This document shows, one piece after another, positions 43,619-51,107 of a DNA stretch of 64,000 nucleotides. Each line of letters starts with the position of its first letter. The first letter of the stretch is position 1. The DNA is from Bacteroidota bacterium. Lineage in GTDB: Bacteria > Bacteroidota > Bacteroidia > UBA8524. The notes beneath the pieces are model-generated. The model was not told the DNA's origin. It saw only the letters and a program-made list of their open reading frames with translations, and ran no database searches. Where the stretch lies: the NCBI GenBank assembly GCA_016124735.1, contig WGMZ01000026.1:1-64000 (forward strand), read 5' to 3'. Made by a program: the position numbers and the translations under genes.

Positions 43619-44596
43619 ATGAACAGTATTGCACTTGTAGTTATTCTGGTTGGTGCCATTATCTTTTTGTTCACCTTCCTATACTTTGTCCCATTGGGAC
43701 TTTGGTTCTCGGCCCAGTTATCGCGTGTGCGCATCAACTTACTCCAGTTGGTATTCATGCGCTTTCGAAAGGTCCCGCCTCAGGTCATTGTCAAAGCAAT
43801 GATCAATTCAACCAAGGCAGGGTTGCGATTAACCCGTGATGAGTTAGAAGCGCATTACCTCGCCGGTGGAAATGTAATCAATGTTGTAAATGCATTAATC
43901 TCGGCCGACAAAGCCAATATCCCTCTGGATTTCAAATCTGCTACAGCCATCGACCTGGCTGGCCGCGATGTGTTCCAAGCGGTGCAGATGAGTGTAAACC
44001 CAAAAGTAATTGATACCCCTCCTGTTACTGCGGTGGCGAAGGATGGAATCCAACTCATTGCGAAGGCAAGAGTAACCGTACGCGCCAATATCAAGCGTTT
44101 GGTGGGTGGCGCCGGTGAAGAAACAATCCTCGCTCGGGTGGGCGAAGGGGTCGTTTCCTCTATTGGTTCGGCCGAATCTCATAAAACGGTATTGGAAAAT
44201 CCTGACTCAATTTCCAAAACAGTTCTTGCCAAAGGACTGGACTCGGGAACAGCTTTTGAAATTCTTTCAATCGATATTGCCGACGTGGATATAGGCAAGA
44301 ACATTGGCGCGGTATTGCAAACGGATCAGGCCATGGCCGATAAAAATATTGCTCAGGCAAAAGCAGAAGAGCGCCGGGCTATGGCAGTCGCTTTGGAGCA
44401 GGAAATGGTCGCCAAGGCACAAGAGGCCCGGGCCAAAGTAATTGAAGCCGAAGCAGAGATCCCGATGGCCATTGCAGAGGCATTCCGCTCAGGAAACCTC
44501 GGCGTCATGGATTATTACAAACTCAGAAATATTCAGGCAGATACGGATATGCGCGACAGCATTTCCAAACCGCCAAAAGACAGCGGAAAGAAATAA
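43619..44596 (+). CDS. floA: Flotillin-like protein FloA
   Basis: The 325-residue protein has the FloA/YqfA plan: an N-terminal membrane hairpin ([27 protein letters not shown]), an SPFH-like domain ([21 protein letters not shown], then [13 protein letters not shown]), and a long Ala/Glu-rich coiled coil ([19 protein letters not shown]). A short hydrophilic tail finishes the protein. FloA forms membrane microdomains and scaffolds oligomeric complexes. Preceded by nfeD, and followed by a strong terminator. Confidence 0.95.
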
Positions 44597-44600
44597 AAAA

Positions 44601-44629
44601 AGGCCGGTAAATTACCGGCCTTTTTTTTT
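44601..44629. terminator. Bidirectional terminator between floA and msrA
   Basis: A stem of ten base pairs (AGGCCGGTAA / TTACCGGCCT) has a very tight centre; the effective loop is AAATT. It is flanked by A- and T-runs. It separates the convergent floA and msrA operons and includes the end of the msrA frame. Confidence 0.85.
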
Positions 44630-45305
44630 ATTTGACTCCTGGCTTCAGCTTATCTCCAAAAATTTTTTTCATCTTTTCCACCTTTGGTTTGATGACCATT
44701 TGGCAATATGGCTGTTGCCCATTGTTAGTGTAATATTCCTGATGGTAGTCCTCTGCCGGGTAAAAAGCTTCCAGCGGACTAATTTCCGTTACAACGGGAG
44801 ACGGAAATGCCGATTCCTCGTTTAATTTCTTTTTGTAGTACTCTGCTCTTTCTTTTTGATAGGTATTGTGATAAAAAATCACAGATCGGTATTGCGTTCC
44901 AACATCCGCTCCCTGACGATTCAGGGTGGTTGGATCATGGGTTTGCCAAAATACTTCGAGCAATTCATCATAACTGATAACTGCCGGCTTGTAGATGATT
45001 TGTACCACCTCTGCATGTCCCGTTAATCCACTGCAAACTTCCCGGTAGGTTGGATTCGCAATCTTCCCTCCGGAATAACCGGATTGAACAGATTCCACCC
45101 CTTTTAAATCCTGAAAGACAGCTTCCACACACCAGAAGCATCCGGCACCAAAGGTGGCGGTATCTACTTCATTGCTATCTTTAATTTCCTTCATATTGCC
45201 TTCCGATTGAAAATCTATTTTATTGGTCTGTTTTGTCGGATTCCCTTGGCATGCTAAGAGAAAGCCAAGGCTCATCATCCCCGTCGTGAATATGCTCATT
45301 TTCAT
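44628..45305 (-). CDS. msrA: Peptide methionine (S)-S-oxide reductase MsrA, lipoprotein form
   Basis: MsrA reduces oxidised methionine in proteins. The 225-residue product has a lipobox (GFLLAC, Cys19) after a short signal, so it acts in the envelope. The catalytic region GAGCFWCVEAVF lies near residue 55, and the family elements GHAEVVQIIYKP and YRSVIFYHN follow. The gene starts inside the upstream polytopic-membrane-protein gene: the two share 86 nt in different frames. The lipoprotein signal lies in that overlap, which supports the long start. Its position at the end of an exporter operon suggests repair of exported or envelope proteins. Confidence 0.93.
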   Translation of the reverse strand: MKMSIFTTGMMSLGFLLACQGNPTKQTNKIDFQSEGNMKEIKDSNEVDTATFGAGCFWCVEAVFQDLKGVESVQSGYSGGKIANPTYREVCSGLTGHAEVVQIIYKPAVISYDELLEVFWQTHDPTTLNRQGADVGTQYRSVIFYHNTYQKERAEYYKKKLNEESAFPSPVVTEISPLEAFYPAEDYHQEYYTNNGQQPYCQMVIKPKVEKMKKIFGDKLKPGVK

Positions 45306-46686: not shown

Positions 46687-48089
46687 TCCAGAATAAGTTT
46701 TTCTAAAAGGTCACCTCGGGTATGAAACAAACGAATTAAAGCCATTCGCCATTTGATCTCCAGACTCACGCGTTTTGCCTGCGATTGAAAGCACATGTTT
46801 TCTCGCTGATTCAGTAAGAAAACAGAGCTTTCCCCACTCCGAAAACGAATAATTTCTGCATCCAATAATTTCTGATAACTGGATTGGATACCTTCCTGAA
46901 TGCGCGCATTTTCCAGCCCTAACACATATTCCTGAAAGTTGGCATTGATCTTTTGGGCAATTTGTCTTTGTTTATCTGCAATTTCCCAATTCACCTCTTG
47001 TTGTTTTAATCGGGTATATTGTACAGCCGCTCTTTCCTGCCGCATAAATATTGGAAAAGAAATTCCGATGCCTGCTTTGTAATAGTCTGTGCCAATGGTC
47101 TGCAATGCCTGAAAGTCCTGAGAGGCATCATACAACAAGTTGTATTTAAATTCCGCTTTAGGTAGCAGCTGGTTTTGCCTGAATCGAAGTTCTTTACTCA
47201 GAATCTCCGTTTGATTATAAAATTGCATGAGCAATGGATTTTCGGCCATCCAGTCTGAATTTACCGCCGCAGAATCCACCAAATTGGTAATTTCCTCGAG
47301 CTGATCCAATAAGGGGGGAACTCCTTGGCCCTGTTCCAGCAAATGTTTCCAATACTCCTGCCAGATAAAAGTAAGCAGGTGTTGGGTGTGTTTTCTGTAA
47401 TTCAGCAAGGCGTCATTAGTAGCCAATAGACGACTTTGCCATTGCATATGAGACTCCACTGTATCGATGAGTGGTCGGTCGCCCAGCATGGCAGCTGACC
47501 TGGTCGTTTGAAATTGTTCCTCGCTTATCTGACTTGCGTTTCGATTGATAATCCAAATATTGTATGTTTCCACCCATGTCCAGTAGGCTTCCATACCTTC
47601 GTGGAGCAAGTCGTTCAATTCCGTTTTTTGTTCATAGGGAGCTGTTTTTTGAAGGATGAAGGCTTTGTTTCTTTCAAATCGCATTTTGCTTTGCCAAAGT
47701 CCGTTGCCCAAAGGAACTTTCAAACCACCCGCATATAGCCCATTCATCGGAACGGAATTTTCCGGATTCATGTACTGACCTGAATTATGATCAAAGCGAC
47801 TGTATATTTCAATTCCATATAGCGTTGGAATACTCAGTCCGCCTCCAAGTAAATTCCAATAATTCTTTCCGTCAAAAGTTTTTCGGTCGTAATTTAAATT
47901 AAAACCCGGTTCTGTCAGCCCTTTGGCTTTCAACCAGCTGGCTTGCGCAAATGCCGGTCGCAGGGAAGCCTGAAAAGCTCGCGGATGGTATTCTACCAAT
48001 TGTTTGGCAAACGTCTTCGGTTGGAGAATGGTCTCCGCAGCAGTATATGTAAAGGACAAAAATCCACTTAATACCCAGGCCAATTTCAT
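46683..48089 (-). CDS. TolC-family outer-membrane efflux protein
   Basis: The 468-residue product is of the TolC/outer-membrane-factor family. It has an N-terminal signal (MKLAWVLSGFLSFTYTAAE) and long helical hairpins (NQTEILSKELRFRQNQLLPKAEFKYNLLYD-like second repeat, around residues 290-320). The C-terminal repeat includes QRENMCFQSQAKRVSLEIKW. It would form the outer duct of a tripartite exporter. It overlaps the HlyD gene by 4 nt and the membrane-protein gene by 4 nt. No individual feature suggests loss of function. Confidence 0.85.
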   Translation of the reverse strand: MKLAWVLSGFLSFTYTAAETILQPKTFAKQLVEYHPRAFQASLRPAFAQASWLKAKGLTEPGFNLNYDRKTFDGKNYWNLLGGGLSIPTLYGIEIYSRFDHNSGQYMNPENSVPMNGLYAGGLKVPLGNGLWQSKMRFERNKAFILQKTAPYEQKTELNDLLHEGMEAYWTWVETYNIWIINRNASQISEEQFQTTRSAAMLGDRPLIDTVESHMQWQSRLLATNDALLNYRKHTQHLLTFIWQEYWKHLLEQGQGVPPLLDQLEEITNLVDSAAVNSDWMAENPLLMQFYNQTEILSKELRFRQNQLLPKAEFKYNLLYDASQDFQALQTIGTDYYKAGIGISFPIFMRQERAAVQYTRLKQQEVNWEIADKQRQIAQKINANFQEYVLGLENARIQEGIQSSYQKLLDAEIIRFRSGESSVFLLNQRENMCFQSQAKRVSLEIKWRMALIRLFHTRGDLLEKLILE

Positions 48090-49438
48090 TTTATATTTCC
48101 TTTTTCTGAATCCTCTATTCGATAAAATTCGGGCGGGAACCCGTTCAGTCTGCGCCAGAGTTCATACCACACGGGCACATCTTTCAATAATGCATATCCT
48201 TTGGCTCCGCCTCCAATTGCCAGCAATTCGGGCCATTTTTCTGTATTTTCAGATGGAGAAACTAAAATGCGGTAGCGTCCATTTGGACTGATATTATTGT
48301 CAATCACTTTTACTGTTCCTCCAAATGTCCCGAAAGATGTCCCTGGCCAGCCACTGAATACAACCGAAGGCCAACCATCAAATTGAATTCGAACAGAACG
48401 TCCGATTTCGAACAAGGGTAAATCAACGGCTTGAATATAAAAGGCGACAGCCATATCATGCACTTCAGGAGTTATACTTGCCAATGCCTCCCCGGCTTTA
48501 ACGTTTTCACCAAGTCCTGCCCGATGAATCCTCACAATTTGTCCATCTTGTGGGGCAAGAATAAAGTAGTTTCCAGCCCGGATTACATAGTTAGAATAGG
48601 CATTATTGAGTTTGGATAGTTCCTCATTTACTTTGGATAAGTCGGATACTGCGGTTTGTATTTCCGACTGTATCTTAAAGATTTTTTCCAGGTACTCCGC
48701 CTCTATTGTATTCAGTTCTACTTCAGAAATAAGAAATTCATTTTGAGAAATAGCAAAATCATTTTCGGCCTTATTGAGTTTGGCCATGGCGCTTTGCATT
48801 TTATTCTGGCGCGATTCTAATTCAGTTTTAGAAATAAGGTTCTGTTTGTATAATTCCCCACCCCTTTCGTATTGTGCTTTGAAGTTGGAATAATCCGTGC
48901 GCGCTGCCTCAATCGCCGCACTGTCTGTACTTAATTTGTAGTGAATTTGCTCTATTTTTCTGCGGGTTTGCTGCGTTTTCAACTTCAGGTTCTGACGCAG
49001 CGCAGCTATCTGGCGTTCCAGCGCATCAATTTTATTCTGGTAAGCCTTGGTTGAATTGTGTTTGGCTTGCAATTGTTCTTCTGTACGTTCCAGTAGAAAT
49101 GGATCCCAGTACTGATCTTTAATTTCCGAAATCCGCGCAATAGTATCCCCTTTTTGAACAAGCATTCCTTCCCTTACATACCAGTGATCTATTTTTCCTT
49201 CTATCACCGACTGAATTTCCTGAGGACGTGTTTCAGGTTCAAGCGTAGTCAGATTCCCCTGCATAAATACATTCTGTGTCCAGGGCATAAATAACAGAAC
49301 AATACCCAGCCCCAAAAAGAAAAATAATACTCGACTGAAACGGCGTATTGTTCCGAGTCGCATGACTTTGTTTCGAGATAAATCCGAACCCGGAACGAAA
49401 TAGTCGTTATTTAGCTTTTGAGATGACAGATTAAGCAC
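48086..49438 (-). CDS. HlyD-family membrane-fusion (adaptor) protein
   Basis: The 450-residue protein has one membrane helix near residues 35-55 (RVLFFFLGLGIVLLFMPW), a lipoyl-like half (SVIEGKIDHWYVREGMLVQKGDTIARI), and a long alpha-helical hairpin between about residues 120 and 290. The second lipoyl half is FILAPQDGQIVRIHRAGLGENVKAGEAL, and a beta-barrel domain follows. It links an inner-membrane exporter to TolC. Start is GTG at 49438, overlapping the end of the ABC-like gene by 8 nt. The intact adaptor argues that the operon is in use. Confidence 0.9.
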   Translation of the reverse strand: MLNLSSQKLNNDYFVPGSDLSRNKVMRLGTIRRFSRVLFFFLGLGIVLLFMPWTQNVFMQGNLTTLEPETRPQEIQSVIEGKIDHWYVREGMLVQKGDTIARISEIKDQYWDPFLLERTEEQLQAKHNSTKAYQNKIDALERQIAALRQNLKLKTQQTRRKIEQIHYKLSTDSAAIEAARTDYSNFKAQYERGGELYKQNLISKTELESRQNKMQSAMAKLNKAENDFAISQNEFLISEVELNTIEAEYLEKIFKIQSEIQTAVSDLSKVNEELSKLNNAYSNYVIRAGNYFILAPQDGQIVRIHRAGLGENVKAGEALASITPEVHDMAVAFYIQAVDLPLFEIGRSVRIQFDGWPSVVFSGWPGTSFGTFGGTVKVIDNNISPNGRYRILVSPSENTEKWPELLAIGGGAKGYALLKDVPVWYELWRRLNGFPPEFYRIEDSEKGNIK

Positions 49439-51107
49439 TCTGTCCTCCTTTCTCTTGAATTAATGAGGCCAAAGGAGTGCGTTCTCCCTTAAAATGATCA
49501 GGGATGTTTTCACTGATTACCCAAAAATATTTGCCAGTAACTTCAAACAAAGCATTTAAATCAGTTTTGGATAACAGTGCGTTGGGCCAAAGGTTCAAAT
49601 CAATTAATACGACCTCAGCTTCACTCATGCAGGTGCGAAGAATCCCAAGCTGCCAAAGAATGGTCGTGTCATTGAAAATCCATAATGGCTCAATGGTTTC
49701 CCGAAAAGTCAGGCCAAAATCATTTAATCGCGCCGATAAGCCAATGATATCTGCAATTTTCATGGCCTTCCTTAGCGCTTCCGGCTCACCTTCAATTCCT
49801 AAATAGCTGCTAATCGACTCATTCATGACAACCTTTGCTGGCTCAATCACCATAAATTTCTGCCGCCATATTGAGAGATTCCATTCACTCAACGCCAAAC
49901 CATCAGCGCGCACCGTACCCTCCGCGGGATCAATATGACCACCCAGTAATTTCTTGAAGGCAAGAATTTGAAGCGCACTGCCTCCAAGCCATAAATGGTT
50001 CACCTTAAGCGAAAAGCTGCCATTAGGAACTATAAAATTTCTTCCCATTTTAAAACAAAGCCCCTGAAAGGCCAATTCTTCTATGGGTTCAGAACGCGTA
50101 TACCCCTTTGGTAAGTCTATCGTGAGTTCAGGGATTTTTGCCACTTTTTCAACTGCTGTCAATACATCATATATACCTTCCATACTCAGAAGCAATTTTT
50201 CAACAGATCCCATGATTAAGATGATTACAATCTCTGCCGCAATAAACTGTCCCAGGTTAATTTGTCCCGACAACACCAGATTTGCGCCAATGATTAACAA
50301 AATACTGATGATCAATGTTTTGAAAAATATTAAAACCTGGTATTGTGTACGAAGTACTCTAAAATGTTTTTTACGTGCATGCAGGTAGGCGCTTAAAAAG
50401 TCATCTACCTGTTTTAATCCTTTTTGGAATGGTTGTGCTGCCTTGTACCAGAAATGCTCCAACCCGAGCCGTTGCAAGTGAAATGCAATCCGGTATTTCT
50501 CCTCCGATTCTATCATACTGGAACTCAATCCTCTCGGACCGGAAAAACGAAAAAACAAAAAGAGAATAATAAAAATCAGCAAAGAAAAGAAGCCGAAAAA
50601 TGGATGATAAAATGAGATCAGAATTAATCCAAATACCATTTGAAGAATGGCGGCCGATAAATCCATCAATAATTTGGGAACCTGCTTTTGAATAGTCAGC
50701 GTGTCAAAGAAACGGTTAGCCAGCTCCTGATACAGATATTTTCCTGTAAGATTAAGTTTTAATAGCGGTAAGCGGAAGGCATACTCAAAACTGGATCGGA
50801 GAAAAATCTTCTGTTGAAGAACTTCTACAATACTCAGCTGAATTAATTGCATTACACCGACAAAGAAAGTTCCCGTTATTACCAGGGCAATCAAAAGAAC
50901 CAATGATGTCGAGAAGTAAGCCCCCATCAAATAAGTGATAATTGCCTGAACGCCCAATGGAAGTGTCAGACTTATAATTCCACTGATAATAGCATACATA
51001 TAAAGAAGCCAAATGTCTTTGTAATCTTCCCGGAGGACTGCAAACATTTTTCTGGAACTACTAACTATAAGATTTTTAGATGAATTCGGCTTCGAAGGTT
51101 CTTTCAT
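49431..51107 (-). CDS. ABC-exporter-like protein with a degenerate ATPase domain
   Basis: The 558-residue protein has a six-helix ABC exporter domain (about residues 20-310) and a C-terminal domain that aligns in length and order with an ATPase. Its motifs are gone. Walker A is LGGSALQIL (near 374-382), with no GK(S/T). The Q-loop position reads MVIEPAK. The LSGGQ region has become WIFNDTTILWQLG. Walker B (VVLIDLNLW) keeps Asp but lacks the catalytic Glu. The H-loop reads WVISENI. The frame is intact and the hydrophobic core pattern is kept, so it is a pseudo-ATPase rather than a broken gene. It heads the HlyD-TolC operon. The start is the ATG at 51107; the frame extends to a TTG at 51128. 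Confidence 0.85.
   Translation of the reverse strand: MKEPSKPNSSKNLIVSSSRKMFAVLREDYKDIWLLYMYAIISGIISLTLPLGVQAIITYLMGAYFSTSLVLLIALVITGTFFVGVMQLIQLSIVEVLQQKIFLRSSFEYAFRLPLLKLNLTGKYLYQELANRFFDTLTIQKQVPKLLMDLSAAILQMVFGLILISFYHPFFGFFSLLIFIILFLFFRFSGPRGLSSSMIESEEKYRIAFHLQRLGLEHFWYKAAQPFQKGLKQVDDFLSAYLHARKKHFRVLRTQYQVLIFFKTLIISILLIIGANLVLSGQINLGQFIAAEIVIILIMGSVEKLLLSMEGIYDVLTAVEKVAKIPELTIDLPKGYTRSEPIEELAFQGLCFKMGRNFIVPNGSFSLKVNHLWLGGSALQILAFKKLLGGHIDPAEGTVRADGLALSEWNLSIWRQKFMVIEPAKVVMNESISSYLGIEGEPEALRKAMKIADIIGLSARLNDFGLTFRETIEPLWIFNDTTILWQLGILRTCMSEAEVVLIDLNLWPNALLSKTDLNALFEVTGKYFWVISENIPDHFKGERTPLASLIQEKGGQSA

Follow-up and report, generated by a model that had tools for sequence, protein, structure and literature searches.

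The stretch of DNA analysed here, hereafter the window, comprises 64,000 nucleotides from a Bacteroidota bacterium (GTDB class Bacteroidia; GenBank assembly GCA_016124735.1, contig WGMZ01000026.1, positions 1 to 64,000), and the gene under study encodes an ABC-exporter-like protein with a degenerate ATPase domain (Table 1). This gene, on the minus strand, opens a run of overlapping genes, in the order exporter, HlyD, TolC, a 488-aa protein and MsrA; the HlyD gene overlaps the exporter gene by 8 bases and the TolC gene overlaps the HlyD gene by 4 bases. An earlier note, made from the sequence alone, had described an intact frame for an exporter still encoded with an adaptor and an outer duct, and this description holds, with a frame open over 558 codons and both partners recognised by Pfam. 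The adaptor is also matched by TIGR01843 at E 2e-26, below the cut-off of that model. On the whole, we regard it as fairly probable that the protein forms the inner-membrane component of a tripartite export system, made up of an ABC-type transmembrane domain (TMD), HlyD and TolC, which has abandoned its ATPase and may be driven by protons.

Table 1. Features of the exporter locus, with positions counted from the first nucleotide of the window.
Feature	Position	Strand	Basis
ABC-exporter-like protein P0001 with degenerate ATPase domain, 558 aa	49431..51107	minus	ATG start; open reading frame, alignment, AlphaFold, fold match
Transmembrane domain of six helices plus an elbow helix (residues 17-327), which the family conserves	50127..51059	minus	AlphaFold helices; identity; invariant residues
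Codon of Glu95 (TM2)	50823..50825	minus	191/191 class-type relatives; Asp or Glu in 13/13 outside the class
Codon of Lys141 (TM3)	50685..50687	minus	191/191 class-type relatives, 13/13 outside the class
Codon of Glu292 (TM6)	50232..50234	minus	Invariant in 191/191 class-type relatives, 13/13 outside the class
Degenerate nucleotide-binding domain, residues 340-558, stop included	49431..50090	minus	Alignment, AlphaFold, fold match
Lost Walker A, residues 375-382, GGSALQIL	49962..49985	minus	Alignment with relatives
Lost LSGGQ signature, residues 479-483, NDTTI	49659..49673	minus	Alignment with relatives
Walker B with Asp503 retained and Leu504 in place of the catalytic Glu	49596..49601	minus	Alignment with relatives
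Periplasmic adaptor of the HlyD family (450 aa, listed with a GTG start)	48086..49438	minus	PF13437 E 6e-11
TolC-family outer-membrane channel, 468 aa	46683..48089	minus	PF02321 E 3e-19
Hydrophobic, probably multi-helix membrane protein, 488 aa	45220..46686	minus	Hydrophobicity by eye
MsrA	44628..45305		In the run of overlapping genes

The alignment bears out the claim that all five catalytic elements, namely the Walker A Lys, the LSGGQ signature, the catalytic Glu, the Q-loop Gln and the H-loop His, are gone. In the Walker A loop the first Gly alone is kept and Lys is replaced by Ile381, the Q-loop Gln is replaced by Pro423, and the H-loop His is absent; the Walker B Asp503 remains. On the evidence of this loss, a homodimer of the protein would be unable, as had been proposed, to hydrolyse ATP by the known mechanism. 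The profile check on the ATPase domain is negative, with PF00005 (ABC_tran) not found in the window protein at E<=1; ABC_membrane is a weak Pfam match (E 0.0035, below cut-off), and the full-length NCBIfam matches all fall far below cut-off, the best being NF045998 with 65 bits against 500. Some relatives do match PF00005, for example L003 (E 5e-19) and L005 (E 4e-18). At the level of the fold the C-terminal domain is nevertheless ATPase-like: the AlphaFold model of the window protein (mean pLDDT 84.9, pTM 0.79) matches ABC exporters along its full length, including TmrAB (6rai_B, Z 27.1, 534 aligned, 3.1 Å), HlyB (8dck_A, Z 26.5, 529 aligned, 3.0 Å), PCAT1 (7t54_A, Z 25.8, 536 aligned, 3.6 Å) and BmrCD (Z 26.6). 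The input alignment consisted of the window protein and 57 relatives from named records, many of which have a better kept nucleotide-binding domain (NBD) and may have steered the model. By its predicted fold, the C-terminal domain is an ABC ATPase. The closest homologue found, in genome G004 (51% identity), has lost the same five elements, which argues against a sequencing error.

We then consider the family to which the window protein belongs. Among 149 near genomes, 85 match the window protein at E<=0.001, a tally that includes weak matches to ordinary exporters. Within the class, 196 of 395 genomes match at E<=1e-20, nearly all of them with one match; since roughly half of the searched class genomes thus carry the family, a general physiological role is likely. 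Over genome contigs, a query with the single protein found no relatives, and a query with an alignment of relatives gave at least 572 matches, of which the best 80 were kept; 77 of the 80 kept named loci enter the motif table (43 Flavobacteriales, 12 Cytophagales, 11 Saprospirales, 4 Chitinophagales and 7 other or unplaced). Altogether, 177 matches reduce to 167 distinct proteins after removal of identical sequences, and 160 of these have an NBD region. Four fragments (L226, L243, L245 and L246) were dropped, and L242 was kept though cut at one end. A profile of the membrane domain scores complete members at 313 bits or more (226 or more with those found later) and the other ABC exporters in the set at 27 bits or less. 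The motif columns were controlled with four canonical loci that meet both motif patterns, out of nine tried (L172-L175 and L178 were dropped).

None of the 160 distinct NBD-bearing relatives keeps all five elements. The Walker A Lys is found in 147 of them, a generous count that includes Lys aligned in otherwise broken loops (e.g. L039, L047 and L060), and the pattern GK[ST] in 128; among the 13 relatives without the Lys, six have Arg. The remaining elements are far rarer: SGG of the signature occurs in one relative, the Walker B Asp in 30, the catalytic Glu in 21 (with Asp there in 107), both DE in five, the H-loop His in three, and the Q-loop Gln in seven at the canonical column or in 36 when one column either way is allowed. 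Seven relatives, the window protein and G004 among them, have none of the five left. The loss of motifs is thus common to the class-type homologues, a point that the earlier note had left to be checked, and as far as the motifs tell, the ATPase erosion is a property of the class-wide family and not of the window gene alone. As side observations on the family, one genome has two copies (G018:C11 and G018:C3; L028 and L031), and members of 720-760 aa (L018, L025, L028 and others) have an N-terminal extension of about 150 aa. Three pieces of this extension gave no significant Pfam match; our guess is that it represents a degenerate C39-like domain.

Relatives outside the class show where the loss began. 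Of the 148 genomes searched across the phylum, 39 give a match. Fifteen of these belong outside the class; all 15 were read, and two proved to be of the class type. In the other 13, Walker A is present throughout, DE in 11 and the His in 10, with signatures such as LSTGQ, LSTGE and LPGGL. The canonical Q-loop column is without Gln in all 13, L250 having a Gln one residue away. PF00005 is matched at E 2e-25 or better in the three outside-class relatives tested, and the P-loop of L259 is intact. The 13 proteins lie on one side of a branch with an SH-aLRT support of 100. In L250 the exporter gene is followed by HlyD and TolC (Pfam), and similar frames are seen by eye in most outside-class loci. 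From these relatives we infer an ancestor with an ordinary ATPase; most likely it would have been an ordinary ATP-driven tripartite exporter whose signature was already weakened. In L256 and L257, also outside the class, the catalytic Glu (as DS) and the His are lost, showing an ATPase decayed there too.

Inside the class the decay extends to Walker A and to the whole domain. The Walker A Lys has been changed about 11 times on quick trees of the membrane domain, with at least 6 or 7 changes forced by well-supported branches. Nine bare permeases of 334-361 aa stop where the NBD would start and form one clade (support 100), and ten further proteins, also one clade (support 99), consist of a membrane domain joined to HlyD in one chain. 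All nine fusions tested match HlyD_3 above its cut-off, and the tenth, L241, was placed by sequence pattern. The forms without NBD account for no fewer than 19 of the 196 genomes of the class that match at E<=1e-20, a count in which frames without fetched sequence were judged by length alone. L165, which runs into a contig end, is not counted among them and was removed from the final tree. The trees are quick maximum-likelihood trees with SH-aLRT in which long branches meet, and the change counts as well as both NBD-less clades are estimates. HlyD and TolC follow all three bare permeases read over 8.5 kb (L057, L166 and L167; Pfam), and a TolC-like gene follows the three fusion loci read, L058 (Pfam), L059 and L065 (both by eye). 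Judged on these sequences, the working unit would very likely be the membrane domain together with HlyD and TolC, with no need for ATP hydrolysis of its own.

These counts also bear on the idea that nucleotide use persists in an unconventional or residual way, in which ATP, once bound, would serve as a switch in those relatives that have Walker A, and the window protein has lost even that. The 128 relatives with GK[ST] would fit it, as would the purifying selection on the NBD described below, but the window gene lacks the Lys, the catalytic Glu, the signature, the Gln and the His, and a Lys changed about 11 times together with two clades without any NBD makes this reading very unlikely.

Constraint is distributed quite unequally along the protein. 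Mean identity within the family is 0.53 for the TMD against 0.32 for the NBD, and the TMD is the more conserved part in 98.6% of 12720 pairs. In 30 intact exporters, which are the top matches to one ordinary exporter from the window genome (C34), all with their motifs intact and taken as orthologues, the relation is reversed (TMD 0.54, NBD 0.71; TMD higher in 0.9% of 435 pairs). The 13 outside-class proteins are in between (TMD 0.49, NBD 0.41; TMD higher in 78% of 78 pairs), and the comparison of the window protein with G004 stands at the far end (TMD 0.68, NBD 0.25). We also estimated dN/dS by NG86 in 11 pairs, 10 of which have an NBD. Values for the TMD were obtained in four of the 11 pairs (0.012-0.025) and for the NBD in seven of the 10 (0.016-0.43), the remaining pairs giving no value; in the four pairs with both, the NBD value is 1.3 to 7.5 times that of the TMD. 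In the pair L169/L170, which is without all five elements, the NBD has a dN/dS of 0.135. In the measured pairs, the constraint on the NBD is relaxed, not neutral. The expectation that the degenerate domain is under purifying selection therefore stands for these relatives, but it could not be carried over to the window gene, whose comparison with G004, the one near relative, is saturated at synonymous sites (pS 0.84 for the TMD and 0.79 for the NBD; pN 0.239 and 0.549, respectively) and yields no dN/dS.

According to the earlier note, homologues with intact motifs together with relaxed selection would mark the gene as a decaying pseudogene. Near-intact homologues do exist, outside the class as far as read, but the relaxation concerns the NBD alone. 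An NBD only 25% identical to its nearest relative is what a decaying gene could show; the open frame of 558 codons overlapping HlyD, a TMD 68% identical to that of G004 with the gene order conserved, and the presence of all nine residues invariant in the family are not, and we give the pseudogene practically no weight.

The nine residues in question (E95, K141, Y167, S201, K204, G274, F288, E292 and K321) show no variation across the 191 class-type relatives, the 19 without an NBD included. Glu292 is placed in a hydrophobic stretch of TM6 by the sequence and the AlphaFold helices. Of the energy sources offered in the earlier note, a proton-driven gate seems the best, by analogy with SbmA, and proton coupling is the source that we would tentatively prefer. 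The analogy has its weak side in that Glu292 predates the loss of the ATPase. In fact, Glu292, Lys141, Ser201, Lys204 and Lys321 are also present in all 13 relatives from outside the class, the majority of them seemingly with a competent ATPase, and because they are equally present there the conserved polar residues were not gained to replace ATP. This weighs against a simple form of proton drive, and several other points weigh against our reading as a whole. GK[ST] persists in 128 of the 160 relatives, so that for most of the family the binding of ATP, even if it is not hydrolysed, may be of importance; the catalytic Glu persists in 21 relatives and DE in five; the coupling helix of intracellular loop 1 (ICL1; PELxNRFF-like) is retained in the bare permeases, which could mean that an NBD is bound in trans; the selective regime of the window gene itself is hidden by saturation; a recurrent cargo gene was not found beside the operon in 62 loci, and the cargo may lie elsewhere; and transport itself is deduced from the HlyD and TolC partners.

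With the polar invariants shared by relatives that appear to use ATP, one may ask whether the membrane domain works as a transporter at all. It could instead be an inner-membrane platform or passive gate on which HlyD and TolC assemble, without alternating access and with substrate arriving from the periplasm or by diffusion. The fusion of the TMD to HlyD in ten relatives fits such a role, and so does the conservation of HlyD, which over 52 loci is nearly as high as that of the TMD (mean identity 0.525 against 0.598, with TolC at 0.379 and the NBD at 0.372). A mere anchor, however, should have little use for nine residues that never vary among the 191 relatives, are distributed from TM2 to TM6 and include five charged ones, and we consider the platform unlikely.

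The coupling helix kept by the bare permeases is the strongest point in favour of an ATPase that acts in trans, with another ABC exporter or an orphan NBD serving as a heterodimer half or binding to the coupling helices. The ICL1 motif is kept in most members, bare permeases included; the window genome (G000) has four ordinary exporters and other NBDs; and in L046 (71-1924) and G052 (C23:12376-14154), both of family f3, the family gene is immediately preceded, on its own strand, by an intact ordinary exporter. A composite ABC site is built from Walker A, Glu and His of one subunit and LSGGQ of the other, so that even with an intact partner one site would be without LSGGQ and the other without Glu, His and Lys. 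In the 62 loci, a second ABC protein turns up at most twice among the six commonest positions of each cluster, no genome-wide search for a partner having been made. Beside the three bare permeases read over 8.5 kb, the only frame with a P-loop pattern is the HlyD-type adaptor of L057. At E<=1e-60, 59 of 60 genomes contain exporters of the G000:C34 kind, orthologues not being separated, whether or not the family is there, so that these exporters reveal no special link. In the fusion clade, moreover, the coupling-helix residues E128 and R132 drift while the nine invariants stay. The idea of the earlier note that the protein is half of a heterodimer with an active half elsewhere is weakened accordingly, the family being mostly without both halves of the site and two clades being without any NBD while keeping HlyD and TolC where looked at; we rate a trans-acting ATPase as quite improbable.

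Returning to an exporter with an abandoned ATPase, the sequences trace the course of the loss as follows. In the outside-class relatives the ATPase is almost complete and belongs to a gene set of this kind. In the class group the signature, the catalytic Glu and the His switch are mostly lost with Walker A mostly staying, after which Walker A was lost many times, the window gene being one case. Two clades are without the whole ATPase domain, and in one of these the membrane part runs straight on into HlyD. Throughout, the membrane domain has stayed, and with it its polar residues. As for mechanism, the membrane dimer would still change conformation and hand its substrate to HlyD-TolC without ATP hydrolysis, most likely powered by the proton gradient by way of conserved acids, as in the ABC-derived SbmA, and the remaining NBD would be a structural vestige under weaker yet real purifying selection. 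That this amounts to a secondary pump within a tripartite system, a HlyD-TolC exporter with a proton-driven, ABC-derived membrane domain and living relatives at every stage of the loss, seems to us possible but rather doubtful.

The neighbourhood of the operon was compared over 62 loci. The TolC-type cluster is present in all 62 and the HlyD cluster in 57, and one further gene cluster lies directly upstream on the same strand in 41; three of its members tested belong to the TetR family (TetR_N above cut-off). A TetR-type regulator with a conserved N-terminus (NPESSDLGKRI-like) is also seen upstream of the operon or divergent from it in L126, L125, L153, L166, L167 and others, and by eye a TetR-type gene of the family kind adjoins five of six NBD-less loci read. 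Such a regulator is present in G001 and G003, and no match to it was found at E<=0.001 in G000, G002 and G004. The upstream TetR hints at efflux of small molecules rather than of a dedicated cargo. In the window, the 488-aa hydrophobic protein, which is without a Pfam match, could relate to the substrate; its gene overlaps that of TolC by 4 bases, and G004 has a counterpart at the same place. At the far end of the gene run, a flotillin-like gene (FloA/YqfA-type by eye; 43619-44596, plus strand) adjoins MsrA, and a FloA-like gene likewise adjoins the operon in G004 (L182) and in L065 (by pattern); as a partner of the operon it was judged coincidental.

Among known systems, the nearest in plan are type 1 secretion and the tripartite ABC exporters (HlyB-HlyD-TolC; TIGR03375, TIGR01846, TIGR01843), which have the same fold end to end and the same three genes. 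For the four relatives tested, NCBIfam gives TIGR03375 (type I secretion permease/ATPase) as the top match, at scores far below cut-off. Unlike these systems, the window protein is without working ATPase motifs, none of its 160 relatives has a complete set, and no cargo gene recurs. ABC exporters are defined by ATP hydrolysis, and compared with an ATP-driven type IV ABC exporter the six-helix TMD and the C-terminal NBD of ABC fold are present, but every catalytic feature tested fails. Degenerate-site exporters such as TAP, TM287/288, TmrAB and BmrCD resemble the window protein in fold, as the matches to TmrAB and BmrCD indicate, and the Glu-to-Asp change and lost His known at degenerate ABC sites are changes of the same kind as in the window family. 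They differ from the window protein, which has lost each of the five elements and has no second subunit encoded beside it; such exporters keep one working site, e.g. ABCC1 and ABCC7 (PMC7756269).

Two systems that do without ATP are closer in principle. SbmA is an importer and is not known to work with HlyD or TolC; EmrAB-TolC joins a non-ATP inner-membrane pump of the MFS type to TolC. The HlyD-type adaptor of the window resembles that of the latter, matching the EmrA model TIGR00998 at E 4e-15, below cut-off, with the adaptor alone compared; the inner component differs, being here an ABC-type membrane domain by predicted fold. For SbmA and the SLiPT group, PMC13316013 describes an ABC-type membrane domain derived from full ABC transporters, which has lost its coupling helices and runs on protons through conserved glutamates. 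The window family agrees with SbmA/BacA in an ABC-exporter membrane domain that probably makes no use of an ATPase, in conserved membrane acids (E95 and E292, invariant here) and in descent from full ABC transporters. It differs in that acids at the E95 and E292 positions also occur in ATPase-competent-looking relatives, that the window protein keeps a degenerate NBD (19 relatives are without it), that the ICL1 coupling helix is mostly kept, and that intermediate stages of the loss survive. The Pfam family of SbmA/BacA gives no match in the window protein at E<=1, and SbmA is not among the fold matches listed for the model, which has no bearing either way; the likeness is one in principle, not in family. 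No description of the family or of the TMD-HlyD fusion was found by title or opening of the abstract, in a search whose coverage excludes most subscription journals and all preprints. A profile match to the ABC ATPases, such as most of the tested relatives give, is no guarantee that a Bacteroidota gene encodes an active enzyme. Among its living relatives, an ABC exporter can be seen losing its ATPase step by step, with the membrane domain almost frozen and HlyD and TolC in place, so that the family provides a natural experiment in how far ABC transport depends on ATP and a possible parallel to SbmA in the setting of export.

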